From Roseibium suaedae (lineage in GTDB: Bacteria > Pseudomonadota > Alphaproteobacteria > Rhizobiales > Stappiaceae), in contig NZ_FRBW01000002.1 of NCBI RefSeq assembly GCF_900142725.1, positions 1,144,710 to 1,208,709 of the forward strand: 64,000 nucleotides of DNA. Reading direction: 5' to 3'. Positions 33,024-47,278 of this stretch are shown one piece after another. Both the position numbers and the translations under genes were made by a program. Each line of letters opens with the position of its first letter. Within the stretch, counting starts at the first letter, position 1. The notes below the pieces were generated by a model. The model ran no database searches, was not told the DNA's origin, and saw only the letters and a list, made by a program, of their open reading frames with translations.

Positions 33024-34994
33024 TTAACGCGTTCCGGAGAGCGCGGCGACGGGATCCAGCCTCGCAGCGTTGCGGGCTGGTAGATAGCCGAAAACGACAC
33101 CGATCAGGCTCGACACCGCAAAGGCTGCGGCCATTGATTGCGTCGAATAGACCAGCTTGAAATCGGTGCTGAGCAAGCTGAAGGCATAACCGAACGCCAG
33201 CGCGACCCCGATACCGAGTATGCCGCCGATCAAACAGACCAGCACGGCCTCGATCAGAAACTGCTGCAGAATATCGCCCTGCCGCGCCCCGACAGCCATG
33301 CGCACACCGATCTCCGAAATCCGTTCGGACACCGTGACCAGCATGATGTTCATCACCCCGATGCCGCCGACGATCAGCGCGATCACCGCAATGGCGGAAA
33401 TCAGCAGGGCCAGAGTCTGGGTCGTGCTGGTAATGGTTTTCCGGATGTCATCCGTGTTGAGGATGAAGAAGTCCTTGGTGCCGTGCCGCCGTGTCAGAAA
33501 GTCGGTCACGGCCTGCTCGGCAAGGCTCATGTCCACCTGATCGGACACACGCACCGTGATGCTTCTGAGACTTGTGCTGCCAAGAAGGCGGGTCTGGACC
33601 GTGGTGTAAGGCAAATAGACCGACAAGTTCTGGCTGTCGCCGAAGCCCTGCTGCTTGGCGACGACGCCAACCACCCGCACGGGCACATTGTCCGCCAGGA
33701 TCACCTGTCCGATCACGCTGCCTATATGATCCGCGAAGAGTGACTTGCGGGTGTTTTCGTCAATCACCCCGTCCGGCTGGCGGCTGGTGACGCTGGAACC
33801 GTCGAAGAAGCGCCCCTCTTGAAGGGTCAGCCCCTTGGCAACGAAATAACCCTCGCCCACACCGCTGATCTGGCCTGTCGCTTCCACGTTGCCATGGCGC
33901 AGGGTGGCGCTGGTCGAGACCGTTGGCGTGACAGCAGACACATAGGGCTGACGTGCCAGCTGATCCGCATCCCCAACGACCAGCGTGGTGATCTTGCCGG
34001 AGCGCATGTCGCCGAAGTCCTTGCCGGGAAAGATCTCGAGCGTGTTGGTACCCAGACTGCTGATGTTGGCCAGAACCTTCTGTTGGGAACCGGTACCAAG
34101 CGCCACGACGCAGACCACGGAGGCAATGCCGATAATGATCCCGAGCATGGTCAAAAGCGCACGGACCTTGCGGGCCAACATGGACCGGACCGCCATGCGC
34201 AGGGCCTCTCCAGCCCGGTCGATGCGGGAGCGGAACCAGTTCATCTGGCTCCCAGCCCTTCCAGACGGGCCCGCTGAGGTTTGTGCCTCTTCGCTTGGTC
34301 CGCCCTGACCACCATCTACCAGGTTGGCGCTGTCCGAGATGATCAGGCCATCGCGGATCTCGATGATCCGCTCTGCCGTCGCCGCAATGTCCGTATCATG
34401 AGTGACCAGGATGATGGTCTTGCCGCTCCTGTGCAATTCCTTCAGCTCGGCCAGAACATCCGCACCGCTCTGACTGTCCAGCGCTCCGGTCGGCTCATCG
34501 GCCAGGATGACATCGGCACCGTTCATCAGGGCGCGGGCAATGGAGACGCGCTGCTGCTGACCGCCAGACAACTGACCGGGCCGGTGCGTGGTCCTGTCGC
34601 CAAGCCCCAGACGTTCCAATAGGGAAACCGCCCGCTCCCTGCGGTGGCTGGCATCCAGCCCGGCATAGATAGCGGGAATTTCTACATTGCCGATGGCATT
34701 CAGCTCCGGCAGCAAGTGATAGCGCTGGAAGATGAAGCCGAAATGCTCCCGCCGCAGACGGGACAGATCATCCGGCTCGAGCATGGAAATCTCGACACCA
34801 TTGACCTCATAGCTGCCGCTCGAAGGCCGGTCGAGGCACCCGAGGATGTTCATAAGCGTCGACTTGCCAGACCCGGACTGGCCGACGATAGCGACGAACT
34901 CACCCCGGCCGATGTCCAGATCGACGCCCTTCAGAACCTCGACTTCTCCATCACCCGACGGATAGGCCCGGCCGACACCGCGCAATTTCAGCAT
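33024..34994 (-). CDS. macB: MacB-type ABC exporter (ATPase-permease fusion)
   Basis: This is a 656-aa inner-membrane component of a tripartite efflux pump. The N-terminal ATPase has Walker A GQSGSGKSTLMNILG, signature LSGGQQQRVSIARAL and Walker B VILADEPTGALD. After a linker come the first helix (about residue 280), a large periplasmic domain, and three more helices near the C-terminus with ISEIGVRMAVGARQGDILQQFL. This is the MacB topology of four helices. It follows macA by 11 nt. No outer-membrane TolC gene is in the window. Substrates may be macrolides, peptides or lipids; not decidable here. Confidence 0.92.
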   Translation of the reverse strand: MLKLRGVGRAYPSGDGEVEVLKGVDLDIGRGEFVAIVGQSGSGKSTLMNILGCLDRPSSGSYEVNGVEISMLEPDDLSRLRREHFGFIFQRYHLLPELNAIGNVEIPAIYAGLDASHRRERAVSLLERLGLGDRTTHRPGQLSGGQQQRVSIARALMNGADVILADEPTGALDSQSGADVLAELKELHRSGKTIILVTHDTDIAATAERIIEIRDGLIISDSANLVDGGQGGPSEEAQTSAGPSGRAGSQMNWFRSRIDRAGEALRMAVRSMLARKVRALLTMLGIIIGIASVVCVVALGTGSQQKVLANISSLGTNTLEIFPGKDFGDMRSGKITTLVVGDADQLARQPYVSAVTPTVSTSATLRHGNVEATGQISGVGEGYFVAKGLTLQEGRFFDGSSVTSRQPDGVIDENTRKSLFADHIGSVIGQVILADNVPVRVVGVVAKQQGFGDSQNLSVYLPYTTVQTRLLGSTSLRSITVRVSDQVDMSLAEQAVTDFLTRRHGTKDFFILNTDDIRKTITSTTQTLALLISAIAVIALIVGGIGVMNIMLVTVSERISEIGVRMAVGARQGDILQQFLIEAVLVCLIGGILGIGVALAFGYAFSLLSTDFKLVYSTQSMAAAFAVSSLIGVVFGYLPARNAARLDPVAALSGTR

Positions 34995-35005
34995 GACGCA
35001 GCTCC

Positions 35006-36232
35006 TTAAAGGCCCATTGGCGGCGGACCGCCACGCGTAGAGGTCTGCGAAGCCGTGCCGGCCGCCTTTTGCCCGGAGATCACCCGATCGCCTTCATCAA
35101 GTCCCGAGCGCACTTCCGCCGTGATCTTGTCGTTGAGACCGATCTCGACCTTGCGCTGCTCAATGGCGCCGTCGGTTGTTGCGACCAGCACCGTGTAGCG
35201 CCCGTCAGCATCGCGGCTTTGCAAGGCAGCAGAGGGCACTGTCAGCACGTTTTCTGCCAGGCCAAGCTGAATACGGACATCCGCCGTCATATAGGTTCTG
35301 AGTTTGCCCTCCGGGTTCGGCACATGGAAGACACCGATATAATAGATCGCGGAGGTCGAGGTCGTGGAGGAAGAAGAAGAGTCCGGCAGGCTGCTGTCGT
35401 CAACAATGCTTTCGGGTGCCGGCTCGATGGTCTCCAGCTTGGCGGAATAAGTCACATCCGGAGCCCCGAGAACGGAGAAAGTCACCGGCAGACCAGCCTG
35501 GATCCTGACGATGTCGGCTTCGGAAATCTCGGTGCGGACAGCCATGGTGTTGAGATCACCCAGGACGATGATCGTGGGGGCCGACTGGACCGCGTTCACC
35601 GTCTGGCCTTCCTGGCTCACGATGGCAAGGACCGTCCCATCCGAAGGCGCCTTGATCTTTGTATAGCCAAGATCGACCTCGGCAGCGGCAACTGCAACTT
35701 CCGCTGACTTGATCTGTGCCCGGAGTGAATCCATCTGGGCGAGAATGGTTTTTTCGCCTGCAACAGCGCTATCCAGATCGGAGGTTGCGGAGATCTTCAT
35801 GTTCGCAAGGCTCTGCTCGCGCTTGAGGGTCTGCCGCGCCAGAACCAGCTCGGCTTCCTTTTCCACCAGTTCGGCTTCGGTCTTGGCCTTGGCAGCCTCC
35901 GCTTCCAGCAAGGCATTCTGCTGGCTGACAGAATCTATCTCGGCGACAAGATCGCCTGCCTTGATCGTCTGACCAAGGGACACGTGCAGAGCCGTGATGC
36001 GGCCTGAAGCCTGGGCCCCAACCGCCACGAGATTTTGAGGCTTTACAATACCGGTCGCCAGGACAGTCTCTTCAACCGTCCCCTTTGAAACTGTCGAGAC
36101 CAGATACGCAGACAGTGGATCCTGTTCATCCAGACGCCCTGTCGCATAGGCCCAAGTCAGGCCTCCAGCCACGATGAGCGCGAGAAAAGCCAGCAGCTTG
36201 ATGGTGGCCCTGAGAGCCGAATTTCGCTTCAT
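35006..36232 (-). CDS. macA: MacA-type periplasmic adaptor (membrane fusion protein)
   Basis: This is a 408-aa adaptor linking MacB to an outer-membrane channel. An N-terminal signal anchor (LLAFLALIVAGGLTWAYATG) is followed by a lipoyl half-motif (VGAQASGRITALHVSLGQTI), a coiled-coil of about 80 residues rich in Ala/Glu/Lys, the second half-lipoyl (LGYTKIKAPSDGTVLAI), and beta-barrel domains. An odd low-complexity insert, SLPDSSSSSTTSTSA, lies near residue 295 in a beta-barrel loop. First gene of the macAB operon. Confidence 0.9.
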   Translation of the reverse strand: MKRNSALRATIKLLAFLALIVAGGLTWAYATGRLDEQDPLSAYLVSTVSKGTVEETVLATGIVKPQNLVAVGAQASGRITALHVSLGQTIKAGDLVAEIDSVSQQNALLEAEAAKAKTEAELVEKEAELVLARQTLKREQSLANMKISATSDLDSAVAGEKTILAQMDSLRAQIKSAEVAVAAAEVDLGYTKIKAPSDGTVLAIVSQEGQTVNAVQSAPTIIVLGDLNTMAVRTEISEADIVRIQAGLPVTFSVLGAPDVTYSAKLETIEPAPESIVDDSSLPDSSSSSTTSTSAIYYIGVFHVPNPEGKLRTYMTADVRIQLGLAENVLTVPSAALQSRDADGRYTVLVATTDGAIEQRKVEIGLNDKITAEVRSGLDEGDRVISGQKAAGTASQTSTRGGPPPMGL

Positions 36233-36869
36233 AAATCATCTTCCGCACAGAACGCATCCAGCGCGCATGTCGCCGGACTTCTATCTGCGCTGCGGAAAAG
36301 CGCGGGGATCACCGAAGGGAACTCCCGCATTGCGCCAGCACAGCCCACCATCTGCTGCGCACCCGTCCGCAAGGCGCTGCACAGGCATATAGAGCTGTCC
36401 CGCAAAGCTCAAGACAGAACAATGTAACGTAAAGTCCAAACAGAAATCAGGAGAAACAAAACGACAAGTAAGGAAACCAAAAGAATGGATGAAACAAATA
36501 AATGAATCTTGCGAAAAAATACAAAAAAATGGAATACAAATTTTCTTAGGAAAGCATGAAAAATAGAGGAAAAACCCCAAAAGGAAGAGCATTTTACATT
36601 TAGTTAATGAAGACAAATTCTCTTTAAAACTGCCAGCTGCTTCGCTCCATGTCCTCCACCGCTCTTCTTGCGCCCTTGCTTGCTTGCCCACACGGCGGGT
36701 CCCACCTCCTATTGACTGGGCAAATCCTGCCGGGCAGTAGGAAGATTTTTCCTATAAAAAACAACGATTTAAGTGAATTTTTAGCGCCTGATTTCGCACC
36801 AGCCCCCGTTCAAGAACCATGAGTGGATCAGCGGAGCTCCATTCTTCAGGGACGACAGGGGCAGAGAAG
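36233..36869. other. Long intergenic region with an AT-rich, A-biased block
   Basis: This 637-bp gap separates macA from the ECF sigma gene. From about 36410 to 36620 the + strand is strikingly A-rich and poor in G+C compared with the rest of the window. It contains no convincing gene: the minus-strand frame 36281-36691 gives a Phe/Cys-rich product typical of translated AT-rich non-coding DNA. A second AT-rich stretch at 36735-36782 precedes the motif CGCCTGAT at 36785. The block is a likely regulatory or acquired segment. Confidence 0.6.
36785..36792 (+). promoter_or_regulatory. CGCCTGAT motif, copy 1 (upstream of ECF sigma gene)
   Basis: CGCCTGAT follows an A/T-rich run (gaatttttag) and lies 77 nt before ATG 36870. 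The same octamer precedes the flagellin gene and the flgD gene, so it may be a promoter element shared across this island. Confidence 0.4.
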
Positions 36870-37538
36870 ATGGGCTTGCCATCAATGAAAAAGGATCTCG
36901 ACGCAGATGAGGCGCAGAAGGCTGCTGACGCCCGCAAGGCCGAGATCGTAAAGGCGAAAAGCCTGAACCTGTCCACGTTACCCGATGAAGACCTGCTCGA
37001 ACTGATCCGCCAGGACAACGAGACCGCTTTTCGCACCCTTGTCGACCGACACGTGGATCGCGGATACGCGGTGGCTTACCGAATCCTGCGCAACGCATCC
37101 GATGCGGAGGATGTGGTCCAGGATGCCTTCCTGCAGGTCTGGACCAGACGGGCCGTCTGGCAAGCAGGCCGCGCCCGATTTTCGACCTGGCTTTACCGGG
37201 TCATTTCCAACCGCTGCATCGATCTTCTGCGCCGCCCCCGGATCGAGACCATGGAAACCTTGCCGGAGCTGGAGGATGACCGGAGCGACCAGATGCAGTC
37301 GCTTGCCCGGCAGGAAGCCAGCGACCTGCTGCAGGAAGCCATGGGAAAGCTCCCGGATCAACAACGGATCGCGCTCGTTTTTTCCTATACGGAGAATCTC
37401 AGCAACGGAGAAATTGCGGAGATCATGGAAACCTCCATCTCCGCCGTCGAAGCTCTGCTGAAGCGCGGAAGGCAGAAACTCCGCCATTTGCTACGAAATA
37501 CAGGCGGCGAGATCTTATCTACATTTACGAAGTATTAA
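36870..37538 (+). CDS. ECF-type RNA polymerase sigma factor
   Basis: This 222-aa sigma-70 family regulator heads the flagellar island. A charged N-terminal extension of about 35 residues precedes region 2 (FRTLVDRHVDRGYAVAYRIL, then DAEDVVQDAFLQVW, with ARFSTWLYRVISNRCIDLLR). Region 4 is LQEAMGKLPDQQRIALVFSY followed by LSNGEIAEIMETSISAVEALLKR, a helix-turn-helix for the -35 element. No region 3 is present, as in ECF factors. ATG 36870 is preferred because a purine-rich GGGGCAGAGAAG precedes it; ATG 36819 is in frame. No membrane anti-sigma gene is adjacent. A private role in transcribing the downstream filament genes is inferred from position. Confidence 0.88.
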   Translation: MGLPSMKKDLDADEAQKAADARKAEIVKAKSLNLSTLPDEDLLELIRQDNETAFRTLVDRHVDRGYAVAYRILRNASDAEDVVQDAFLQVWTRRAVWQAGRARFSTWLYRVISNRCIDLLRRPRIETMETLPELEDDRSDQMQSLARQEASDLLQEAMGKLPDQQRIALVFSYTENLSNGEIAEIMETSISAVEALLKRGRQKLRHLLRNTGGEILSTFTKY

Positions 37539-37568
37539 CTATTCGGAACGGGTCAGAGCATTTTATTT

Positions 37569-37576
37569 CGCCTGAT
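37569..37576 (+). promoter_or_regulatory. CGCCTGAT motif, copy 2 (upstream of flagellin)
   Basis: It follows a T-rich stretch (cattttattt) and lies 99 nt before the flagellin ATG. A GGAAC sequence at 37545-37549, of the kind used as an ECF -35 element, lies 19 nt upstream of it. Confidence 0.4.
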
Positions 37577-37675
37577 TACGGACTCTACTTCCGTTGAAGG
37601 GTCAGGCGCGCGTTTTCAGCGCCAAGACCGCGCCTGAGAAATGGGGCGTGGCCCCAATGTCATCAGGAGTTGAAG

Positions 37676-39232
37676 ATGCCCGTTATCTCGACCAACACTG
37701 CCGCGAACACCGCTGTTCGCTACTTGAATGCCAACTCGGAGAGCCAGTCCGACTCCCTCGCCAAGCTGGCAAGTGGCTCGCGCATCACCCGCGCATCTGA
37801 CGATGCAGCCGGTCTCGCGATCTCCACCAAGATTTCTTCCGACGTGACCGCTCTGGAGCAGGCTTCCACCAACGCCTCCCACGGTATCTCCATCCTTCAG
37901 ACCGCCGATGGCGGCGCTGCCAACGTCAGCGACATTCTGGAACGTATGAAGACGCTGGCCTCCCAGTCTGCTTCCGGTACGGTGACCGACACGGAACGCG
38001 CTTATATCCAGGCAGAATTCGAAGAGCTGCAGGACGAAATTGACGCCATCTCGACGTCGACCCGTTACAACGGCCAGAGCCTTCTGGATGGCACCAGCGA
38101 CTTCGCCGACGACACGGTAGAGACCGCCGCGACCGCGACAGGCGCTCTGTCTGACGTCACCGCCTCCGACGCCAGCCTGTCCGGAACCACCGCTCTCGCA
38201 GACCTCAGCCTCGCGGCAGGTGAAACCGCAAGTTTCACGCTGACAATCGACGGCACGGAGACGACCGTCACGCTTGGTGACGACACCTCCGTATCCGCAC
38301 AGACCATTACTGCTGCGCAGATCGTCAGTGCCATCAACACCGCAACCGGGGCCACCAACGCCAGCCTGGACACTGACGGCAACCTCGTCCTGACCGATAC
38401 GGGCGCCCTCGAAATTTCCGTTTCCGACTTCTCGGCAAGTGGCGCCTCGTCCTTCGACGCTTCCAGCCTCGGCCTGACCGAAACGAGCGCGGTGGGTTCC
38501 ACCGAGGGGTCCGTTACCATTGCAGCGGGCGAAACAGCCTCCTTCAAGATCGGAACAGTCGAAGTCACGCTTGGCGATGCAGACAGCACCTCCACCCAGA
38601 CCCTGTCCGCACAGGATGTGGCAGACGCGATCAACAGCGCCTTGGCTGATGCCAACGACTACAGCGCCACCGCATCCGTGGATGACGACGGCAACCTCAC
38701 CATTTCGACCAGAGAAGAAGGCAGCGATGCCTCTCTGACCCTGAGCGACTTCACTGGCATTGATGCTAGCGACCTCGGGCTGACGGAAACTTCCACCGGC
38801 GTCGTAGCAGCCACGGGTACGACCACGGAATCCGCGAGCACGGGTGCAGATGTCGTCGTCGGGTCTGACTACACCGACACCATTACCCTGACGCTGACGA
38901 CGCTGACGACCGAGTCCCTTGGCATCAAGGAACTGGATGTCTCGACCCAGGAAGGCGCAGCTGAAGCCCTGGCCGTTCTCGACATGGCAATCGACGACGT
39001 CTCCAAGGCACGTGCAGAAATGGGTGCGACCATGTCGCGCTTCGAGTTCCGCTCGACCCAGCTCGAAACCAGCATCGAGAACTTGGAAGCAGCAGAATCT
39101 GCCATCGCCGACGTGGATATCGCGACGGAACAGGCAAAGCTGTCTGCAGCCAGCGTGAAGGTTCAGGCAGCTGTCGCAGCTGCTTCCCAGGCCAACGAAA
39201 TGCCTGAGAACCTCCTAAAGCTGCTGCAGTAA
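37676..39232 (+). CDS. fliC: Flagellin (filament protein)
   Basis: This is the major filament subunit, 518 aa, exported through a flagellar channel. The N-terminal D0/D1 domain is canonical (VISTNTAANTAVRYLNANSE, then KLASGSRITRASDDAAGLAI and GISILQTADGGAANVSDILE). The C-terminal D0/D1 ends with ATEQAKLSAASVKVQAAVAA and QANEMPENLLKLLQ. The central region contains two related repeats of about 90 residues (about 175-270 and 278-370), each starting AAGETASF and ending SLGLTETS or DLGLTETS, like flagellin IN domains. The protein lacks cysteine and is acidic. ATG 37676 has GGAG 6 nt upstream. The N-terminus looks more like Rhodospirillales flagellins than the rhizobial MTSIL type. Confidence 0.93.
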   Translation: MPVISTNTAANTAVRYLNANSESQSDSLAKLASGSRITRASDDAAGLAISTKISSDVTALEQASTNASHGISILQTADGGAANVSDILERMKTLASQSASGTVTDTERAYIQAEFEELQDEIDAISTSTRYNGQSLLDGTSDFADDTVETAATATGALSDVTASDASLSGTTALADLSLAAGETASFTLTIDGTETTVTLGDDTSVSAQTITAAQIVSAINTATGATNASLDTDGNLVLTDTGALEISVSDFSASGASSFDASSLGLTETSAVGSTEGSVTIAAGETASFKIGTVEVTLGDADSTSTQTLSAQDVADAINSALADANDYSATASVDDDGNLTISTREEGSDASLTLSDFTGIDASDLGLTETSTGVVAATGTTTESASTGADVVVGSDYTDTITLTLTTLTTESLGIKELDVSTQEGAAEALAVLDMAIDDVSKARAEMGATMSRFEFRSTQLETSIENLEAAESAIADVDIATEQAKLSAASVKVQAAVAAASQANEMPENLLKLLQ

Positions 39233-39246
39233 TCCGCTGCGGAATT

Positions 39247-39303
39247 CCGGGCTGCGGGTTAACCCCGCAATGAGGCATCCGCCTTTCCCTACCCGCAGCC
39301 CGG
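39247..39303 (+). promoter_or_regulatory. Alternative hairpins between flagellin and fliD
   Basis: CCGGGCTGCGGGT (39247-39259) pairs perfectly with ACCCGCAGCCCGG (39291-39303) across a 31-nt loop. The same left arm can instead form a local hairpin, TGCGGG (39253-39258) with CCCGCA (39264-39269). The two folds are mutually exclusive. It may protect the flagellin message or attenuate read-through into fliD. Confidence 0.5.
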
Positions 39304-39366
39304 GACCTTATCGCCTGCGCCAGGCACTCCGCCCGTCTGGCCTCCGGATTTACAGGATCGTCCTCC

Positions 39367-41052
39367 ATGACAACAACGACATCGACGACGTCATCAACGA
39401 CGACCACCTCCACCAGTTACAGCTATTCCACCAGTTCATCCGACACGGACTGGGACGCCCTCATCGAAGTTGCAGTCGCCGCGAAGGAAACGCGCGCGGA
39501 CTCCATCGATGTCAAGATCGCAGACAATGAAGCGACAATCGCCGCATACGAGGAAATGCAGTCCCTGCTGCAGGACATCGTCAGCGCAGCGGAAACCATT
39601 CGCGGCACCGCAGACAGCTTGACCGCCAATGACGATATCTTCTCCACCCGCGCAGCCTATCTGACCGCCGTAGGAGATGTGGACGCCGAGAGCGCCGTCG
39701 TTGTCACCGCCGAGGCCGATGCAACGATCACCACCTATGACCTGCAGATCCTCCAGCTCGCGTCGGCACAGAAGATTGCCGGCACAGCCGTCGAGGACAA
39801 GACAGCCGAACTCGGGCTCAGCGGCACTTTCAGCCTTCAGCTTGAGAACATGGAAGCCGTCGAGATCGAGATTTCCGAGGATATGACCCTGATGGAGATC
39901 GCCGAGGCGATCAACGCCAACTCGGACACTTCCGGCGTCTCTGCAACGGTGCTCGAAGTCTCGGAAGGCAGCTACCGGCTCATTCTCAGCGCGGACGAAA
40001 CCGGTCAGGAAATCGTTCTGACCGACGTTTCCGGAGATGATGTTTCAGGCTCACTTGGCCTGACCAACGAGGACGGCAGCTTCACCAGCGAGCTGCAGGA
40101 AGCCCAATCGGCCATCATCAAGATCGATGGGATCGAGGTGACCCGCACAACCAACACCATCGACGATCTGGTCGATGGCGTGACTTTCAATCTCTATCAG
40201 GAGACAGGAGAGGAAGACTCCATCTCGGTGGAGATTTCCAACGACCTCACCTCGATCAAGTCGGCGATCACCGCACTCGTGGATGCCTACAACCTCTATC
40301 GCGAATGGGCGGTCACCCAGCAAGCGACCTCGTCTGCAGGCGGGGCATCCGATGATGCCGTGCTCTTTGGGGACAGCACGCTGCGCGCCGTCAACACGGC
40401 GATCGCGGACGCGCTGTCCACTGTCATCGATACAGATTCCATGGCCCTGCTCGGGCTGTCCTATGACGAAAGCAACTATCTCGTTCTGGATGAGACCACA
40501 TTGAACGAAGCCCTCCTGGCAGACGTGGACGCCATCGAGGACCTGCTCGCTTTCCAGATGACATCCACTTCCACGGATATTGCTCTGCTCAACCGCTCCT
40601 CCAACATGCCGGAAAGCCTCAGCCTCGACATCGAAGTCGATAGCGATGGCAATATCAGCAGTGTTTCCGTCGACGGTGACAGCAGCCTCTTCACCATCAG
40701 CGGCTCCCGTATCAAGGGCGCCGAGGGATCGATCTATGAAGGCATCACCTTCGTCTTCACTGGCGATGAAAGCCAGTCGGTAGATCTCACCTTCTCCAGC
40801 GGGATTGTCGAAAAGCTTTATTCGGCCATCGAGTCCTATTCCAATTCCGATGACGGCATCCTGGAAGACATGATGGTCAGTCTCACCGAAACCAACGAAG
40901 ACCTGCAGGAAGATGCCGATGATATCCGCAGCCGTGCGGAAACCTATCGGGACACGCTTGCAGCCCGCTATGCGGCCTACCAGGTGGCCATCGAGGAAGC
41001 CGAATCCACCCTGGACTATCTAGAAGCCCTTCTTAACTCGGGAAATGATTGA
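39367..41052 (+). CDS. fliD: Flagellar filament cap protein (FliD, hook-associated protein 2)
   Basis: This is a 561-aa protein of the FliD family, forming the cap under which flagellin assembles. It opens with a 28-residue Ser/Thr-rich tract (MTTTTSTTSSTTTTSTSYSY...), then WDALIEVAVAAKETRADSID, the usual N-terminal FliD helix. The repeated pattern TYDLQILQLASAQKIAG and the domain around LMEIAEAINANSDTSGVSATV and YRLILSADETGQEIVLTD are characteristic. The C-terminal coiled region ends RYAAYQVAIEEAESTLDYLE. The protein is strongly acidic. Many alphaproteobacteria lack FliD, so its presence here is notable. fliS follows directly. Confidence 0.88.
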   Translation: MTTTTSTTSSTTTTSTSYSYSTSSSDTDWDALIEVAVAAKETRADSIDVKIADNEATIAAYEEMQSLLQDIVSAAETIRGTADSLTANDDIFSTRAAYLTAVGDVDAESAVVVTAEADATITTYDLQILQLASAQKIAGTAVEDKTAELGLSGTFSLQLENMEAVEIEISEDMTLMEIAEAINANSDTSGVSATVLEVSEGSYRLILSADETGQEIVLTDVSGDDVSGSLGLTNEDGSFTSELQEAQSAIIKIDGIEVTRTTNTIDDLVDGVTFNLYQETGEEDSISVEISNDLTSIKSAITALVDAYNLYREWAVTQQATSSAGGASDDAVLFGDSTLRAVNTAIADALSTVIDTDSMALLGLSYDESNYLVLDETTLNEALLADVDAIEDLLAFQMTSTSTDIALLNRSSNMPESLSLDIEVDSDGNISSVSVDGDSSLFTISGSRIKGAEGSIYEGITFVFTGDESQSVDLTFSSGIVEKLYSAIESYSNSDDGILEDMMVSLTETNEDLQEDADDIRSRAETYRDTLAARYAAYQVAIEEAESTLDYLEALLNSGND

Positions 41053-41054
41053 TC

Positions 41055-41498
41055 ATGAGCTATGCCATGAACCGCGCAATCGGCGCCTATCGTCAGGCTG
41101 CTGTCGCCGTGCCCCCTCTGGCCGCAGTGACCTTGCTTTTCGACGAAGTGCTCAACGCATTGATTCTAACATCGAGGCACCTGATGGACCGGGAGTATGA
41201 ACAGGCGCATCTGCGTTCCCAGCGTGCGGTCGGCATTCTGCAGGGGCTCCGCCAGAACCTGGATCTGAAGACCGGAGGGCCGGTGGCCAAGCAGCTCCTC
41301 GACACCTACACGCGCAACATTTCCGCCATCAATTCGGTGATCGGCAAGCCCGATGCAAACCGTCGGCTTCAACAGCTTGCAAGCGGCCTTCTCGAACTGC
41401 GCAATGCCTGGGCCGAGATGACCAGCCTGTCGCAAAGATCACTGGAACCACTTATGCGGGAATTCGAGATAAAACATGATATTGTCAGAAATGCCTAG
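41055..41498 (+). CDS. fliS: Flagellin export chaperone (FliS)
   Basis: This 147-aa helical protein binds the flagellin C-terminus and prevents premature assembly. The start AMNRAIGAYRQAAVAVPPLA and TLLFDEVLNALILTSRHLMD match the family's first helices (YxxxxVxTxxPxxLxxLLYDGxLxxL), with a variant PPLAAVTLLFDE. Later segments (RAVGILQGLRQNLDLKTGGP, LDTYTRNISAINSVIG) also fit. The ATG lies 2 nt after the fliD stop. The C-terminal tail of about 25 residues (SLEPLMREFEIKHDIVRNA) extends past the usual end. Confidence 0.85.
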   Translation: MSYAMNRAIGAYRQAAVAVPPLAAVTLLFDEVLNALILTSRHLMDREYEQAHLRSQRAVGILQGLRQNLDLKTGGPVAKQLLDTYTRNISAINSVIGKPDANRRLQQLASGLLELRNAWAEMTSLSQRSLEPLMREFEIKHDIVRNA

Positions 41499-41561
41499 GA
41501 CATAGACAGACACATTCCGGACATGTACGATTTGGGAAATTGACCCAACGTCGGATTCGGA

Positions 41562-41942
41562 ATGACCGCGCACAAAGCTGGCATGTCGCTTGAGATCTTC
41601 GAGGATCACCTGGACCGTTTCGGCGGCACAGTTGGTTCCTGGCCCGAGCGCATCCGCCAACACGCAGAAACACTTCTGAGCACGTCCGAGGAGGCTCGCG
41701 AGCTTCTCGCCGAGGTCAATACGATGGAAACTTACATCACACGCGCTGCGCCACTCCGCGCGCCGGCAGGTCTGGCAGACCGTATTGCCAACCGCGCCTT
41801 CCAACAGCGGCAGCAAAACGAACTGCATCCAACTCATCCTGCCTATGGTCTGGCCGAGCAGATCAGCGAAAGCTTCTCCAGCGCCAATTCCACATCTGCA
41901 GATACGGCAACGACGGGCAGCAAGACGGATATCATCGCCTGA
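41562..41942 (+). CDS. Uncharacterised 126-aa protein in the flagellar island
   Basis: Function is not recognised with confidence. The N-terminal half has the pattern FEDHLDRFGGTVGSWPERIR followed by HAETLLSTSEEARELLAEVN. A similar 'GG...WP...A..LL..S..AR.LL' segment occurs in small alphaproteobacterial proteins often encoded beside ECF sigma genes (recalled, not searched). The C-terminal third is Gln/Ser/Thr-rich and probably disordered. No membrane segment or signal peptide is visible, so a classical membrane anti-sigma is excluded. It is the last gene before a terminator, 64 nt after fliS. A cytoplasmic partner of the island's sigma factor, or a filament-associated factor, are both open possibilities. 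Confidence 0.7.
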   Translation: MTAHKAGMSLEIFEDHLDRFGGTVGSWPERIRQHAETLLSTSEEARELLAEVNTMETYITRAAPLRAPAGLADRIANRAFQQRQQNELHPTHPAYGLAEQISESFSSANSTSADTATTGSKTDIIA

Positions 41943-41984
41943 CACTGCCTGCTCTGCCCTAGTGCACGACCCAGACATTTCAAA

Positions 41985-42010
41985 GCCCGGCCCAAGCGCC
42001 GGGTTTTTTT
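41985..42010 (+). terminator. Intrinsic terminator after the 126-aa gene
   Basis: GCCCGGC pairs with GCCGGG across CCAAGC and is followed by seven T residues. It closes the fliC-fliD-fliS-126-aa unit before the separate flgD unit. Confidence 0.85.
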
Positions 42011-42060
42011 AATGCCCAGGCACGGTTAACTTCACAAAACAGCCCCACTCCACAAGAGCA

Positions 42061-42160
42061 CTATTTACCCGGCAGGTATTTCCTACCGGCACATTGTATT
42101 GGGCAGTAATTTCCCAGTAAATAAAAGAAAATTCTTCGCCTGATCTTTGGCCCTGGTCCG
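42061..42160 (+). promoter_or_regulatory. AT-rich leader of the flgD operon with CGCCTGAT motif (copy 3)
   Basis: The 305-bp gap between the 126-aa gene and flgD holds the terminator above and an AT-rich upstream region. It includes CGCCTGAT at 42137-42144, 103 nt before the flgD start, an imperfect palindrome around GGTATTTCCTACC (42075-42087), and GGGCAGTA (42101-42108), an octamer also found upstream of the sigma gene (36732-36739). No gene is seen in the gap. Confidence 0.45.
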
Positions 42161-42247
42161 TTTTAAAAACAAAAGGGATCGTAGAGCAGGAAAAATTGGC
42201 TCACCAGCGTCCCTTGCAGTGTTTTCATATTGCACGGAGACAAAACG

Positions 42248-42928
42248 TTGAGCATTTCTTCCGTCAATTACTATACATCGACGAGCAGCACGAGCACGTC
42301 AACGTCTTCCACAAGCTCCAGCTCCTCCACGCTAGGTATCACCAGCTCGGATTTCTTGCAGCTGATGGTCGAACAACTTCAGAACCAAAGCCCGCTCGAT
42401 CCGGCCGATACGGATTCCTATCTGGACAAGCTGGTCGCCTATGCGAGCTATGACACCCAGACAGCTATTTCAGACAATCTGGAAAGCATCACCTCGACGC
42501 TTTCCAGCACCCTGTCGTCCAGCGGACTCGGCTACATCGGTCAGACCGTTGAAGTCACAGGCAGCACCACGAGCCTCGAAGACAGCTCGGCTGAGTGGAC
42601 CTACACGCTCGATTCCAATGCAGCCTCCACGACCATCAATATCCTGGATGAAAACGGCGATGTGGTCTGGACCGGCAGCGGTGAAACCGATGCGGGCACC
42701 CACTCCTTCTCCTGGGACGGCACGACCACAGACGGCACACAGCTCGAAGATGGCGGCACCTACACCCTGAGCATCGAGGCCACCGATTCCGATGGGGACT
42801 CCATCGATGGGTCGACCACCGTGATCGGCAAGGTCACCGGCCTCGACGTCTCCGACGACGACAGTCTCCTGAAGATCGGCGATGCGTCGTTCTCGGTCGA
42901 GAACGTCCTTCAAATCCTGGCAAGCTAA
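42248..42928 (+). CDS. flgD: Hook-cap scaffolding protein (FlgD)
   Basis: This is a 226-aa protein that caps the growing hook. The conserved N-terminal segment ITSSDFLQLMVEQLQNQSPL (usual D/EFL.LL..QLQNQDPL) is clear. The C-terminal part has the two beta domains of FlgD, including TTINILDENGDVVWTG and HSFSWDGTTTDGTQLEDGG. Before the conserved segment is a 25-residue Ser/Thr run (YYTSTSSTSTSTSSTS...), resembling that of the island's FliD. The frame has no usable ATG: TTG 42248 with GGAG 7 nt upstream is the best start. It is first of a six-gene unit ending with flgL. Confidence 0.88.
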   Translation: MSISSVNYYTSTSSTSTSTSSTSSSSSTLGITSSDFLQLMVEQLQNQSPLDPADTDSYLDKLVAYASYDTQTAISDNLESITSTLSSTLSSSGLGYIGQTVEVTGSTTSLEDSSAEWTYTLDSNAASTTINILDENGDVVWTGSGETDAGTHSFSWDGTTTDGTQLEDGGTYTLSIEATDSDGDSIDGSTTVIGKVTGLDVSDDDSLLKIGDASFSVENVLQILAS

Positions 42929-42940
42929 GGAGTTCCAGAC

Positions 42941-44197
42941 ATGAGCTTGATGGGCGCCATCAATTCCGCGATCTCCGCGCTTTACGCACAGAGCCAGGCC
43001 CTCTCCAATATTTCGGACAACCTCGCGAACTCCGAAACCACGGCTTACAAATCCACCAACACCAGCTTCTCCAGCCTCGTTGCCGGCAGCGGCAGTTCGA
43101 GCAGCGGCGGCGTGACTGCCACCACCCGTTCGAACATCACCGAACAGGGCCTGCTTGTCGCCTCCAGCAGCTCTACCGACCTTGCAATCGAAGGCGACGG
43201 CTTTTTCGTTGTCTCCAACGACACGGACGGCGGCCAGACCTATTACACCCGTAACGGTGAGTTTGAAGTCGACGAGGAAGGCTATCTCGTCAACGACGGC
43301 TACTACCTAATGGGTTGGGCTACCGACGCGGATGGGGATGTGATTGGCGGAACAAGCGAAAGCTCGCTTGTGGCCATCGACATCGACAGCGTGAAGAGCT
43401 CGGTCGATGCGACGTCAGAAGTCAGCTTCCAGGCGAACCTGCCCGCAGACGCCGCAGTCGGAGACAGCTTCGAGACCACGTTCGAAGTCTATGATTCCCT
43501 TGGCACGAGCAGCACCGTCTCCGTCACCTGGACGAAGACGGCTGAAAACACCTGGTCGATGGAAGTCGGAGACCCTGAACTCTCCAGCTCGGGCGAAACC
43601 ATCGGCACCTCTTCGACCAGTGCCATCGAGATCGTCTTCAATGATGACGGCACCCTGGCCTCGACCGATCCGAGCCCTGCCGAGTTCACCATCTCCGGCT
43701 GGACCACCGGTGCGGCAGACAGCACTATTTCCCTCGATCTGGGCACGGTTGGCAGTGCCGATGGCCTGTCTCAGTACGCTTCTGACGACACCGATCCCGA
43801 CATCGAGATCCAGCAGATCACCCAAGATGGTCTGGCCTATGGCTCGCTGACCTCCATCGAGATCTCTGATGATGGCTCCGTGACGGCTTTCTTCGACAAT
43901 GGCGAAGAGCGCGTCATCTACAAGATTCCCGTCGCGACCTTTGCCAATGCCAACGGTCTGACCGAACTCAGCGACGGCGTCTATGCGAGAAGCTCCGCCT
44001 CCGGCAACAGCACGCTGCATGAGGCAGGGGAAGGTGGTGCCGGCACAATCAATGGCGGATGGCTGGAAGCCAGTACGACGGACACCAGCGAGGAATTCTC
44101 CAGCATGCTGAGTGCTCAGCAGGCTTATTCCGCCTCCTCCCAGATCATGTCCACCGCAAGTGACATGTTCGACACGCTGCTTGATGCCGTCAGATGA
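42941..44197 (+). CDS. flgE: Flagellar hook protein (FlgE)
   Basis: This 418-aa protein polymerises into the hook. The N-terminus MSLMGAINSAISALYAQSQA and LSNISDNLANSETTAYKSTN is the axial-family signature. DLAIEGDGFFVVSNDTDGGQ, YYTRNGEFEVDEEGYLVNDG and GWATDADGDVIGG form the standard hook domain. The C-terminus (SEEFSSMLSAQQAYSASSQI) closes the axial helix. Length is typical. Its stop overlaps the start of the 88-aa gene by ATGA. Confidence 0.92.
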   Translation: MSLMGAINSAISALYAQSQALSNISDNLANSETTAYKSTNTSFSSLVAGSGSSSSGGVTATTRSNITEQGLLVASSSSTDLAIEGDGFFVVSNDTDGGQTYYTRNGEFEVDEEGYLVNDGYYLMGWATDADGDVIGGTSESSLVAIDIDSVKSSVDATSEVSFQANLPADAAVGDSFETTFEVYDSLGTSSTVSVTWTKTAENTWSMEVGDPELSSSGETIGTSSTSAIEIVFNDDGTLASTDPSPAEFTISGWTTGAADSTISLDLGTVGSADGLSQYASDDTDPDIEIQQITQDGLAYGSLTSIEISDDGSVTAFFDNGEERVIYKIPVATFANANGLTELSDGVYARSSASGNSTLHEAGEGGAGTINGGWLEASTTDTSEEFSSMLSAQQAYSASSQIMSTASDMFDTLLDAVR

Positions 44198-44460
44198 CAG
44201 ATCTCCCGGGCAAGCTTGAGGAAAATCTGGTTCGGCTTCGCCGGCTTTCTTCGGAAATCCGGCGGCTTGCACGGAATCTGGACACTCCGGCTGCCCGGCT
44301 GAACCTTTTGCTGCTGAAGCACGATCTGCAGGACCTCCTGCGGGAAATGCGCGCCGGGAAAGCCGAGGTGTCCAGCACCCAGTCCCGAGCCCATTCCGCA
44401 AGCCGGGTCGCAGGCGCCTACGCGGTTCAGGCCCAGCGCATCAAGACCAAGACCCCCTGA
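44194..44460 (+). CDS. Small helical protein of unknown function (88 aa)
   Basis: Not recognised. It is translationally coupled to flgE (ATGA overlap) and lies 26 nt before the flgN-like gene, so it is a genuine operon member. Residues 5-55 (KLEENLVRLRRLSSEIRRLA, then LNLLLLKHDLQDLLREMRAG) are strongly helical with leucine heptads and many arginines, suggesting a coiled coil. The C-terminal 30 residues are Ser/Ala/Arg-rich. Size and place suggest a flagellar chaperone or hook-length/assembly factor, which is inference. Confidence 0.65.
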   Translation: MTDLPGKLEENLVRLRRLSSEIRRLARNLDTPAARLNLLLLKHDLQDLLREMRAGKAEVSSTQSRAHSASRVAGAYAVQAQRIKTKTP

Positions 44461-44486
44461 CTTTCACAAGAAGAGGCCTTCCTCCC

Positions 44487-44948
44487 ATGCAGATCTCTCT
44501 GTCTTCGGCCACCATCGCCAAGATCGACAGCTCCATCCTGCACATGATCAGCGTCGCGGATGAGCTGATCTCGGTGACCAGCGAGGAATCCCGGCGCCTT
44601 CAGGAAGAAGCCCAGCCCGCGATCGACGACCTTCTGGCCCGCAAGCGCGAGCTGATCCACGACTATGAGAACTGGATCAAGCTGTTTCGCACCCAGAAGA
44701 ACGTTTTGCTGCAAGCATCGCCGATGCTGTTTGAGGAGCTTTTGGAGCGCAACCGCGAGCTTTCCGTCTGCCTGGCAGAAAACAACAAGCATCTTGAAAA
44801 GGCCATGACCAGCAACCGCCGGCGCGTGGACACGATCATGCAGGTGATCCGTGAAGAGCGGAAGCCACCGGCGGTCTATGGCGGCAACGGACAATACAAG
44901 GACCGCCCTGCGGCCCCTGTCTCCCTACGGCCTGTACGAGAGGCCTAG
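44487..44948 (+). CDS. flgN: FlgN-like chaperone for hook-junction proteins
   Basis: This is a 153-aa mostly helical protein directly upstream of flgK and flgL, where FlgN, their export chaperone, is usually found. Segments such as SVADELISVTSEESRRLQEE, LLARKRELIHDYENWIKLFR and LLERNRELSVCLAENNKHLE show the FlgN-type long helices, and a basic Pro-rich tail follows. Assignment rests on fold pattern and position; sequence motifs in this family are weak. Confidence 0.7.
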   Translation: MQISLSSATIAKIDSSILHMISVADELISVTSEESRRLQEEAQPAIDDLLARKRELIHDYENWIKLFRTQKNVLLQASPMLFEELLERNRELSVCLAENNKHLEKAMTSNRRRVDTIMQVIREERKPPAVYGGNGQYKDRPAAPVSLRPVREA

Positions 44949-44986
44949 AACCCGGCCATCAACCCCGAGACCAGAAGGTTTCTACC

Positions 44987-46372
44987 ATGACGTCCTTGTC
45001 TGCAGCTGCGAAAATCGCCTCCAGCTCGCTTGCCGCGACGCAGGTGCAGATGTCTGTCACCGCGTCCAACATCGCGAACGCGGACACGGAAGGCTACACC
45101 AAGAAAAGCGCCACGACCTCAGCGCTCACCAGTGCCGGAACCGGCAGTGGTGTTTCCATCGGCGACATCAGCTCAGGTGTCAGCACCTTGCTTATGAAGC
45201 AGCTGACATCAGCCACCTCGGAGACCGCCGCTGCGGAGAAGACTGCCGATTATCTGGACCAGCTCCAGTCTGCGATGGGGTCGACTACGAGCTCAGACGA
45301 TACCGGCACGTCGCTTGCGAATATGCTGGCGAATGTCGAAACCGCCGTTTCAGACCTCGCCGGAACCCCGGAAAGCACCAGTCTTGCCTATTCAACGCTC
45401 AGCGCGCTGGAAACGCTGACGACCGAACTCAACGACCTGTCCTCGACCATTCAGGACCTGCGCTCAAACGCAGATTCCGACATCGCCACCAGTGTCGATG
45501 CGGCGAATGCTGCCATTGAGGCCATCGACGCCTTGAACGACCAGATCGTGGCGGCAAAGGCCAGCGGAGCAAGCACGGGAGATCTCGAGGATCAGCGCAA
45601 TACCGCCCTTGCGGAGTTGTCCCAGTATCTGGGCGTGACCAGCTTCCTTGGAAGCGACGGGAGCATGAAGGTCTACACCACCTCCGGACAGGTACTGGTG
45701 GACTCCACGGCCCATACCCTGTCATTCGACGAGACAGCCACAATCACCGCCAGCCAGAGCTATGACGGCACGTCTTCAGGGCTCTCGGGCATCACTGTCG
45801 ACGGCAACGACATCACCGACAGCATCAGCACGGGCACGATCGGCAGCCTCCTGGAGCTTCGCGATGAGACGCTGCCTGCTGCCCAGGACATGCTCGACGA
45901 ACTGTCGGATGCGCTGATCACGACCCTGAATGCGGTCATTCCAGATCTCCTGACCGGAACATCAGCAAGTGATATCGCCGTCAATCAGGACATGCTGTCG
46001 GACCCCTCCACGCTCCTCAGCGGCAGCAGCGGCACCGCAGCGGAGACTGCGGAAGCCTTGCTCGATGCGCTTCAGGGCGAAACATCCTTCGACAAGGCCG
46101 GATCACTGAGCGCCAGACAGGAGGACTTTGCCTCCTATGCGACCGACATCCTGTCACTTATCGTCTCCCAGTCGAACGCGGCCGACAAGGCCCTTGAACT
46201 GGCCCAGACAGAGCTGACAACGGTCACCGACACCATCTCCTCCACCTATGGCGTCAACGTTGATGAAGAGACGGTCCGGTTGACCGAACTCGAGCAACTC
46301 TATTCCGTGTCTTCCCAGATCCTGAGCATCCTGAAGGAGATGTTCGAGGACCTGCTGGCCGCAGTACAGTAA
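44987..46372 (+). CDS. flgK: Hook-filament junction protein 1 (FlgK)
   Basis: This is a 461-aa axial protein between hook and filament. The N-terminal QVQMSVTASNIANADTEGYT is the flagellar rod/hook signature. VDAANAAIEAIDALNDQIVA, followed by GDLEDQRNTALAELSQYLGV, is diagnostic of FlgK. It ends with TYGVNVDEETVRLTELEQLY, also FlgK-specific. It is at the short end of the family and is acidic. The gene is 38 nt after flgN and 12 nt before flgL. Confidence 0.92.
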   Translation: MTSLSAAAKIASSSLAATQVQMSVTASNIANADTEGYTKKSATTSALTSAGTGSGVSIGDISSGVSTLLMKQLTSATSETAAAEKTADYLDQLQSAMGSTTSSDDTGTSLANMLANVETAVSDLAGTPESTSLAYSTLSALETLTTELNDLSSTIQDLRSNADSDIATSVDAANAAIEAIDALNDQIVAAKASGASTGDLEDQRNTALAELSQYLGVTSFLGSDGSMKVYTTSGQVLVDSTAHTLSFDETATITASQSYDGTSSGLSGITVDGNDITDSISTGTIGSLLELRDETLPAAQDMLDELSDALITTLNAVIPDLLTGTSASDIAVNQDMLSDPSTLLSGSSGTAAETAEALLDALQGETSFDKAGSLSARQEDFASYATDILSLIVSQSNAADKALELAQTELTTVTDTISSTYGVNVDEETVRLTELEQLYSVSSQILSILKEMFEDLLAAVQ

Positions 46373-46384
46373 GGAGCGTTGACC

Positions 46385-47278
46385 ATGAGCATGCGCGTTG
46401 CAACTTTCGGCCAGACCTCCACCGTTCTTCAAAATGCAATGAAGACCCAGGCCCGGCTCGCGGAAAAGCAGATTCAGGAATCCACCGGACTGATATCAAC
46501 CGACTACGGCGGACTGGGCAGTTCTGCTGGCGCAGTCGCCAGCCTGGAAGTCTCCGCCGCCCGTACGGAGGCCTCCATCTCGACAGCGGAACAGGCTCTC
46601 TCCCGCATCGAGATGATCTACGACGCCCTCGGCTCCATGAGCGACCTCATGACCGACTTGCGCGCCCAGCTCTCAGCAGCTTCCGTCAACACGGACGACA
46701 CACTTCAGGCGACCGCCGAAGCCATGCTTGAAGAACTGACCTCGCTGCTCAACACCCAGTATGAGGGCCGCTACCTTTTTGCAGGCGGAGAGACCGAAAC
46801 CAAGCCAGTTGATCTATCGGGCCTCACCACGACCGGTCTGACGACGGAAGACACGAACTACTATCAGGGCGACGACTATGTGCAGTCGGTCCGCCTCAGC
46901 AGCGACCGATCCCTCGATTACGGCATTACGGCCGACAACACAGCCTTCGAAACAGCTATCCGGACCCTGTCCTATCTGGCAAGCGCAACAGATCTGACCT
47001 CGGAAGACCTTGCAGCTGCCTCCGAATTGCTGGTGGACGCGCAGGATCAGATCCTGGCCCTGCAGAGCGTCGCTGGCATCAAGGCGTCAACCCTGGAAAC
47101 CTATATCAGCGACCAGGAAGACTATCTGGCAACCGTGACTGACCTGGCCACCACTCTAGCTTCGGTCGACATCGCTGTCGTTGCCGTCGAAGCCGCGAAC
47201 TACAAGACCCAGCTTGAGGCCAGCTACTCGGCCCTCGGCACGATGACCAGCCTCAGCGTGCTCGACTATCTGAGATAG
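46385..47278 (+). CDS. flgL: Hook-filament junction protein 3 (FlgL)
   Basis: This is a 297-aa flagellin-like junction protein. N-terminal KTQARLAEKQIQESTGLIST and C-terminal AVVAVEAANYKTQLEASYSA with LGTMTSLSVLDYLR give the flagellin-type terminal helices. LNTQYEGRYLFAGGETETKP is the FlgL hallmark (usually GxYLFaG). ATG 46385 is chosen with GGAG upstream; an in-frame TTG at 46379 is too close to it. It is the last gene of the island; no terminator is evident in the 217-bp gap after it. Confidence 0.9.
   Translation: MSMRVATFGQTSTVLQNAMKTQARLAEKQIQESTGLISTDYGGLGSSAGAVASLEVSAARTEASISTAEQALSRIEMIYDALGSMSDLMTDLRAQLSAASVNTDDTLQATAEAMLEELTSLLNTQYEGRYLFAGGETETKPVDLSGLTTTGLTTEDTNYYQGDDYVQSVRLSSDRSLDYGITADNTAFETAIRTLSYLASATDLTSEDLAAASELLVDAQDQILALQSVAGIKASTLETYISDQEDYLATVTDLATTLASVDIAVVAVEAANYKTQLEASYSALGTMTSLSVLDYLR

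Follow-up and report, generated by a model that had tools for sequence, protein, structure and literature searches.

The 64-kb stretch of DNA from Roseibium suaedae analysed here, referred to as the window (G000:C6:1144710-1208709), carries at 36870-47278 eleven intact genes on the + strand, encoding an extracytoplasmic function (ECF) sigma factor, FliC, FliD, FliS, an anti-sigma-like protein, FlgD, FlgE, a small protein, a FlgN-like protein, FlgK and FlgL. This set, hereafter the kit, on balance probably supplies an alternative hook and filament that is switched by its own ECF factor and mounted on a basal body shared with the ordinary flagellum. A broader proposal, which we regard as evenly poised, is that the kit is an old alphaproteobacterial unit, present all-or-none and free of basal-body genes, with which a single ECF switch swaps both hook and filament on a basal body of another lineage.

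The gene cluster itself is already known: it is widespread, and it has been published as the RpoE6/Asf6/FliC2 cluster of Azospirillum brasilense Sp7 (J Bacteriol, December 2025; PMC12826043). Relative to the consulted part of that article, what is new here is the all-or-none presence of the kit, the lack of basal-body genes, the FlgE clade, the excess of one FlgE over FlhA and the promoter before flgD; that part was not seen to take up a second hook or a promoter ahead of flgD. A literature search with most subscription journals outside its coverage found no other paper on the cluster.

Gene content and the main flagellar set of the host

The kit is arranged as three predicted transcription units: the ECF sigma gene alone, fliC-fliD-fliS with the anti-sigma-like gene, and flgD-flgE-small gene-flgN-like-flgK-flgL. 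Its features are as follows.

36785..36810, + strand, predicted ECF-type promoter before the sigma gene (CGCCTG, 16-base spacer, CGTT)
36870..37538, + strand, ECF sigma factor, RpoE6-type (Pfam Sigma70_r2 5.8e-20, Sigma70_r4_2 1.5e-15)
37569..37595, + strand, predicted ECF-type promoter before fliC (17-base spacer)
37676..39232, + strand, kit flagellin FliC (Pfam Flagellin_N 2.7e-37, Flagellin_C 1e-19)
39367..41052, + strand, filament cap FliD (Pfam FliD_C 2.3e-38)
41055..41498, + strand, flagellin chaperone FliS (Pfam FliS 4.4e-16)
41562..41942, + strand, Asf6-type anti-sigma homologue (cross-matches with Azospirillum proteins in the Asf6 position)
42137..42162, + strand, predicted ECF-type promoter before flgD (16-base spacer)
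42248..42928, + strand, hook cap FlgD, TTG start assumed (Pfam FlgD 5.5e-13, FlgD_ig 5.5e-17)
42941..44197, + strand, kit hook protein FlgE (NCBIfam NF004242 549.7 bits, cut-off 365; Pfam FlgE_D2 5.9e-15; trees)
44194..44460, + strand, small helical protein, function unassigned, conserved in many kits (no Pfam or NCBIfam family)
44487..44948, + strand, FlgN-like junction-protein chaperone, a weak call (PF05130 E 4.4e-5, below the gathering score; precedes flgK)
44987..46372, + strand, hook-filament junction FlgK (Pfam FlgK_D1 4.2e-39)
46385..47278, + strand, hook-filament junction FlgL (NF006489 259.5 bits, cut-off 217, a model whose printed name is 'flagellin'; FlgL model TIGR02550 79.4 bits, below its cut-off)

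These Pfam and NCBIfam matches bear out the gene identities and coordinates of an earlier, sequence-only reading of the window, which had counted ten genes while itself naming eleven. That reading had also left two proteins as unknown. This holds for the product of 44194-44460 (P0008), which matched no Pfam or NCBIfam family and found only chance coiled coils among solved structures; the protein at 41562-41942 is, by sequence comparison, an Asf6-type anti-sigma homologue. The sigma factor contains ECF-type regions 2 and 4 only (Pfam), and its best NCBIfam matches are ECF models. As previously stated, no basal-body gene lies in 36870-47278.

The host genome (G000; 5.14 Mb, 99.96% complete) contains six places that match Flagellin_N, two of them in the kit (FliC and FlgL) and the other four being flagellins at C6:542-548 kb. 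One further FlgE besides that of the kit lies at C6:553 kb, FlgF/FlgG at 535-536 kb and FlbT at C6:549 kb, and FlhA is present as a single copy (C6:996753-998735). Pfam additionally places FliR, FlgC, FliM, FlgH, FlgK, FliN and FliF in these main regions, and a main-region FlgL is recognised by the kit FlgL model. The main export apparatus and basal body are thus about 180 and 630 kb from the kit on the same contig. Given this other hook and filament set and only one FlhA, the kit amounts to an additional hook-filament set that lacks an export apparatus of its own. The whole-genome search that the sequence-only reading had called for returned an flbT-type set with its own hook and one FlhA, and excludes the case in which the island would be the sole hook and filament set. 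Since no private rod or export gate was found, the kit products should leave via the ordinary basal body.

The host main set is of the FlaF/FlbT type and shares flagellin, FlgE, FlgK and FlgL with the kit. Unlike it, the kit has FliD and FliS, is without FlaF/FlbT and has its FlgE in a separate clade. Kit models detected no FliD, FliS, ECF factor or FlgD in the main stretches (C6:500-575 kb and 985-1005 kb); the FlgD of the ordinary flagellum, with no match to the kit FlgD model in those two stretches, may lie elsewhere or be divergent. In another kit genome (G415:C29), the kit ends about 14 kb from flhA, as opposed to about 180 kb in the window genome.

Conservation, distribution and ancestry

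An alignment scan of genome contigs with kit FlgE returned at least 80 loci, and all locus counts given here are among the matches listed; 27 of the 80, titled Bradyrhizobium, do not count as independent, and 17 fall short of 21 kb. The loci come from Roseibium/Labrenzia, Breoghania, Pannonibacter, Cohaesibacter, Bradyrhizobium, Rhodopseudomonas, Tardiphaga, Blastochloris, Magnetospirillum, Novispirillum, Thalassospira, Azospirillum and others, the closest named relative by FlgE being Roseibium litorale (98%). A tblastn search of plasmids with FlgE likewise found Azospirillum loci with the same genes in unrelated flanks. The gene order of the window is also stated for Rhodopseudomonas palustris BisA53, Bradyrhizobium and Magnetospirillum MSR-1 (PMC12826043). 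Eight core genes are all present in 59 of the 63 full-length loci, and 58 also have the anti-sigma gene. As the same arrangement recurs in many loci, the gene set of the island is not a matter of chance.

At the level of genomes, FliD was found in the window genome and 13 of 60 relatives (10/36 same-genus, 3/24 same-order), in agreement with the earlier remark that FliD is uncommon in this group. Kit FlgE accompanies FliD in 13 of these 14 genomes and occurs in 0 of the 47 others (>=349 versus <=246 bits). The exception is G428, where FliD and FliS lie on a 3.4-kb contig, a contig-edge case; the kit is all-or-none in 60 of 61 genomes. Furthermore, in 61 loci that have nine kit genes, the correlation between FlgE distances and the distances of each of the other eight is 0.62-0.84; shared host ancestry contributes to it, and the maximum over 200 permutations per gene was 0.33. 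Departures in content include two or three fliC copies in kits L144, L145 and L198, two kit-type ECF genes in some Magnetospirillum-like loci (L185, L186, L210), and the full-length stretch L207 (Azospirillum agricola), which has only flgD, flgE and the small gene, the kit being partial or split there.

Sixteen queries from the main set, of which FlhB, FliQ, FliG, FlgB, FlgI and FlaF were named by eye, found a basal-body gene in 0 of the 80 kit loci; FlgF/FlgG queries cross-matched kit genes, and such matches were not counted. The FlaF and FlbT queries also matched none of the 80. As a control, the same queries gave a further rod, ring or export match in 17 of 19 non-kit flagellar loci, the other two (L083 and L088) having no match beyond FlgG. 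In addition, 0 of 24 kit loci from further genomes and plasmids had a rod, ring or export match. FlhA is present in all 22 kit genomes, and PF07559 counts give one more FlgE than FlhA in 18 of them (nine 2/1 and nine 3/2; the count for G357 includes one place below the family cut-off).

In the gene-tree comparison suggested by the sequence-only reading, kit FlgE sequences form a single clade that is distinct from host hooks, at 97/94 for 23 rows and, in a second tree, at 99/97 for 33 rows; left out of the second tree were three rows of the first with long branches (G382_second, G179_second and G041_main) and four kit rows that are close copies (G412, G408, G419 and G397). Hooks of complete flagella are the nearest sequences outside the kit, with FliF close by in 9/9, though this deeper join reaches only 81/72. 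In a class sample, kit-like FlgE was found at E <= 1e-100 in 23 of 387 genomes, comprising 9 kit genomes (the window genome included), 9 with hooks beside FliF of complete flagella and 5 weaker cases. This pattern fits one old separation of the hook and filament set from a complete system.

Complete second, lateral-type flagella resemble the kit in giving a cell two hook and filament sets. The kit differs in being without every basal-body and export gene searched for, whereas the second flagella of this genus bring their own FlhA and their own FlgE, which lies near that FlhA and falls outside the kit clade. Many genus mates (e.g., G395:C7:396-412 kb) have such a second FlhA lineage, accompanied by an FlgE and a flagellin of its own nearby, and its presence varies independently of the kit; among the kit genomes of the genus, 8 of 11 have two or more FlhA matches, and G000, G401 and G415 have one. 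In G032, FlhA and FlgF/FlgG are on a chromosome-sized contig, and three FlgE-type proteins (that of the kit included) and most flagellins are on a 0.8-Mb replicon (C1, C2).

Between the window and locus L070, dN/dS (the ratio of nonsynonymous to synonymous substitution) is 0.025-0.081 in ten kit genes and 0.22 in the small gene at 44194-44460, values that are rough for several 5' kit genes with dS near or beyond saturation. These low ratios indicate that the kit is not decaying. In the same comparison dS is uneven, from 0.8-2.7 between the sigma and anti-sigma genes to 0.2-0.25 at the small gene, flgN and flgK, which suggests partial exchange of the kit between species.

The kit is bordered by MacB- and HlyD/MacA-like genes upstream (33024-36232) and a periplasmic-binding-protein ATP-binding cassette (ABC) importer downstream, the borders already recognised as macAB and an importer. 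Flanks vary between Roseibium kits; MacA/MacB-like genes also adjoin the kit in L072/L198 (R. aestuarii) and, in part, in Pannonibacter indicus (L143). One scan of viral contigs gave no relative of FliD.

The sigma factor, its putative antagonist and the predicted promoters

In A. brasilense, fliC2 is driven by RpoE6, and Asf6 interacts with RpoE6 and opposes it (PMC12826043). The kit sigma factor is 50% identical to that of the A. lipoferum kit and 46% to that of A. brasilense (46-51% across Azospirillum and UR115), and its distances track those of FlgE (0.76 over 61 loci), indicating at the sequence level that it is an ortholog of RpoE6. Hidden Markov models (HMMs) of the window-type and Azospirillum-type anti-sigma proteins match each other's members. 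An alignment of 28 members of the 41562-41942 family keeps seven invariant positions, and an NCBIfam anti-sigma model is matched by 9 of the 28, at best with E 2.5e-4 and well short of its cut-off.

The RpoE6 cluster also resembles the window in having the ECF sigma gene beside fliC, fliD, fliS, flgD, flgE, flgK and flgL with an Asf6-type gene, in the placement of its FlgE in the single kit clade and in a promoter of the same form. In the window, by contrast, the sigma gene comes first rather than last, the anti-sigma gene follows fliS, the flagellin has 518 rather than about 275 amino acids, and a motif precedes the sigma gene itself. The kit is also comparable to the FliA/FlgM pair, in which a sigma factor and a small, soluble-looking antagonist govern filament genes, except that the kit sigma factor is of the ECF type and not sigma-28, and that the hook genes of the kit are apparently under the same factor.

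The window contains three copies of the motif CGCCTGA-N13-16-CCGTT, one each ahead of the sigma gene, fliC and flgD, with 0.05 expected and 0 of 100 shuffles reaching three. Genome-wide it occurs nine times (reversed control, 2); the six matches outside the kit were set aside as chance because each of them falls within an open reading frame of 90 or more amino acids. Written as CGCCTG-N16/17-CGTT, it resembles the mapped A. brasilense promoter CGCCAG-N16-CGTGAG (PMC12826043), and CGCCTG-N17-CGTT stands before fliC in the window, as expected of an RpoE6-type promoter. Across kit loci, the joint motif lies upstream of fliC in 64/78, flgD in 52/77 and the sigma gene in 41/70, compared with flgK 12/77, fliD 4/69, flgE 1/79, fliS 0/68, flgL 0/76 and 0.9-2.1 for each set of shuffled upstreams, an enrichment that is partly circular, as the kit loci from which the motif was derived overlap with those in which it was counted. 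A stricter motif gives 43/78, 34/77 and 15/70 for fliC, flgD and the sigma gene, respectively, and in Azospirillum the motif precedes fliC in 8/8 loci and flgD in 8/10. The independent part of the promoter evidence is the mapped Azospirillum promoter (PMC12826043). The motif shared by fliC and flgD makes it probable that a single ECF factor controls both hook and filament genes, and the predicted promoters link the sigma factor with each of the three kit operons, in line with the earlier suggestion that the island is switched by its own sigma factor.

A 15-base element, GGCA-N5-TTCC(C/T)A, is found at 42071-42085 and 42102-42116. It stands once or twice upstream of sigma-gene or flgD promoters, also in L070, L072, L073 and L075-L081, and not before fliC; it could be a candidate activator site feeding the switch.

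Competing readings and implications

In the proposed mechanism, the Asf6-like partner would release the ECF sigma factor on some cue, and three near-identical promoters would let the freed factor transcribe fliC-fliD-fliS(-asf), flgD-flgE-hp-flgN-flgK-flgL and the sigma gene itself. The kit products would exit through the ordinary export apparatus, the only one in the cell, and its basal body, and a different hook, junction, cap and filament would be built there, replacing or mixed with the flbT-type tail. We infer that the anti-sigma homologue acts in this way here, and that the kit hook is assembled, docks on the shared basal body and takes the place of the ordinary hook.

Several observations, besides the partial circularity of the motif counts, weigh against this mechanism. 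Kit-free genus mates likewise carry FlhA, in 26 of 26 cases, and the co-occurrence of kit and basal body therefore does not discriminate between readings. The relation between FlgE and FlhA by PF07559 fails in 4 of 22 kit genomes (G382 3/1, G397 3/3, G032 1/1 and the fragmentary G428 0/1), and a TIGR03506 recount gives 3/1 for G032 and one FlgE for G428. In the Azospirillum study, deletions of rpoE6 or fliC2 leave swimming on plates normal, the polar flagellum is described as having FliC2 as a minor flagellin, and the table of proteins raised on overexpression of RpoE6 contains FliC2, FliD, FliS, FlgL and FliE, with FlgD, FlgE and FlgK unlisted (PMC12826043). These data favour at least a minor-flagellin role, and with them a reading that we consider unlikely but the most serious of the rivals: that the kit modifies a filament, its flagellin joining the ordinary filament with its cap and chaperone as a minor component and altering thickness or surface, while the kit hook is rarely or never built. 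FliC2 was detected in extracellular protein and reported as part of the polar flagellum, and the asf6 deletion mutant, which lacks the 100-kDa polar flagellin band, has thinner filaments, probably almost all FliC2 (PMC12826043). However, a module for one flagellin needs no flgD, flgE or flgK, and their retention with the other core genes in 59 of the 63 full-length loci counts against it. These three genes are also strongly constrained here, and flgD shares the ECF-type promoter of fliC.

It appears improbable that the kit product is an exported fibre that serves attachment or some other role at the surface, using the flagellar export apparatus without acting as a propeller. The kit is dispensable for flagella, as 26 of 36 same-genus relatives have FlhA without it, and the Azospirillum mutants swim normally (PMC12826043), both compatible with such a fibre; yet the parts of an ordinary tail, among them the hook cap and the junctions, are all retained as a group, Pfam and NCBIfam recognised no adhesin gene among the kit genes, and the Azospirillum kit flagellin is reported in the polar flagellum (PMC12826043). 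Least probable is a split standard locus or the remnant of a lost second flagellum. Many Roseibium relatives do have a second FlhA lineage, and the nearest non-kit relatives of kit FlgE are hooks of complete flagella, but the FlgE of these second flagella is their own and falls outside the kit clade, and the kit genes are intact, constrained and recur as a basal-body-free unit in many families. The split locus as such is ruled out by the separate hook, junctions and four flagellins of the main set. Of the two functions offered by the sequence-only reading, the alternative hook and filament on a shared basal body is thus partly supported, while the non-swimming surface fibre gained no support.

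Flagellin switching is well known. If the kit does provide an alternative hook and filament, the hook would change too, on a rod and export gate that evolved with another hook, and rod-hook docking and export specificity would tolerate deep divergence. Hook-rod compatibility, the setting of hook length without a recognised private length-control gene and the competition between two tails would become testable in culturable bacteria. The published account of RpoE6 would widen from one minor flagellin to a whole tail, and one motor could wear two genetically separate propellers, hook included.

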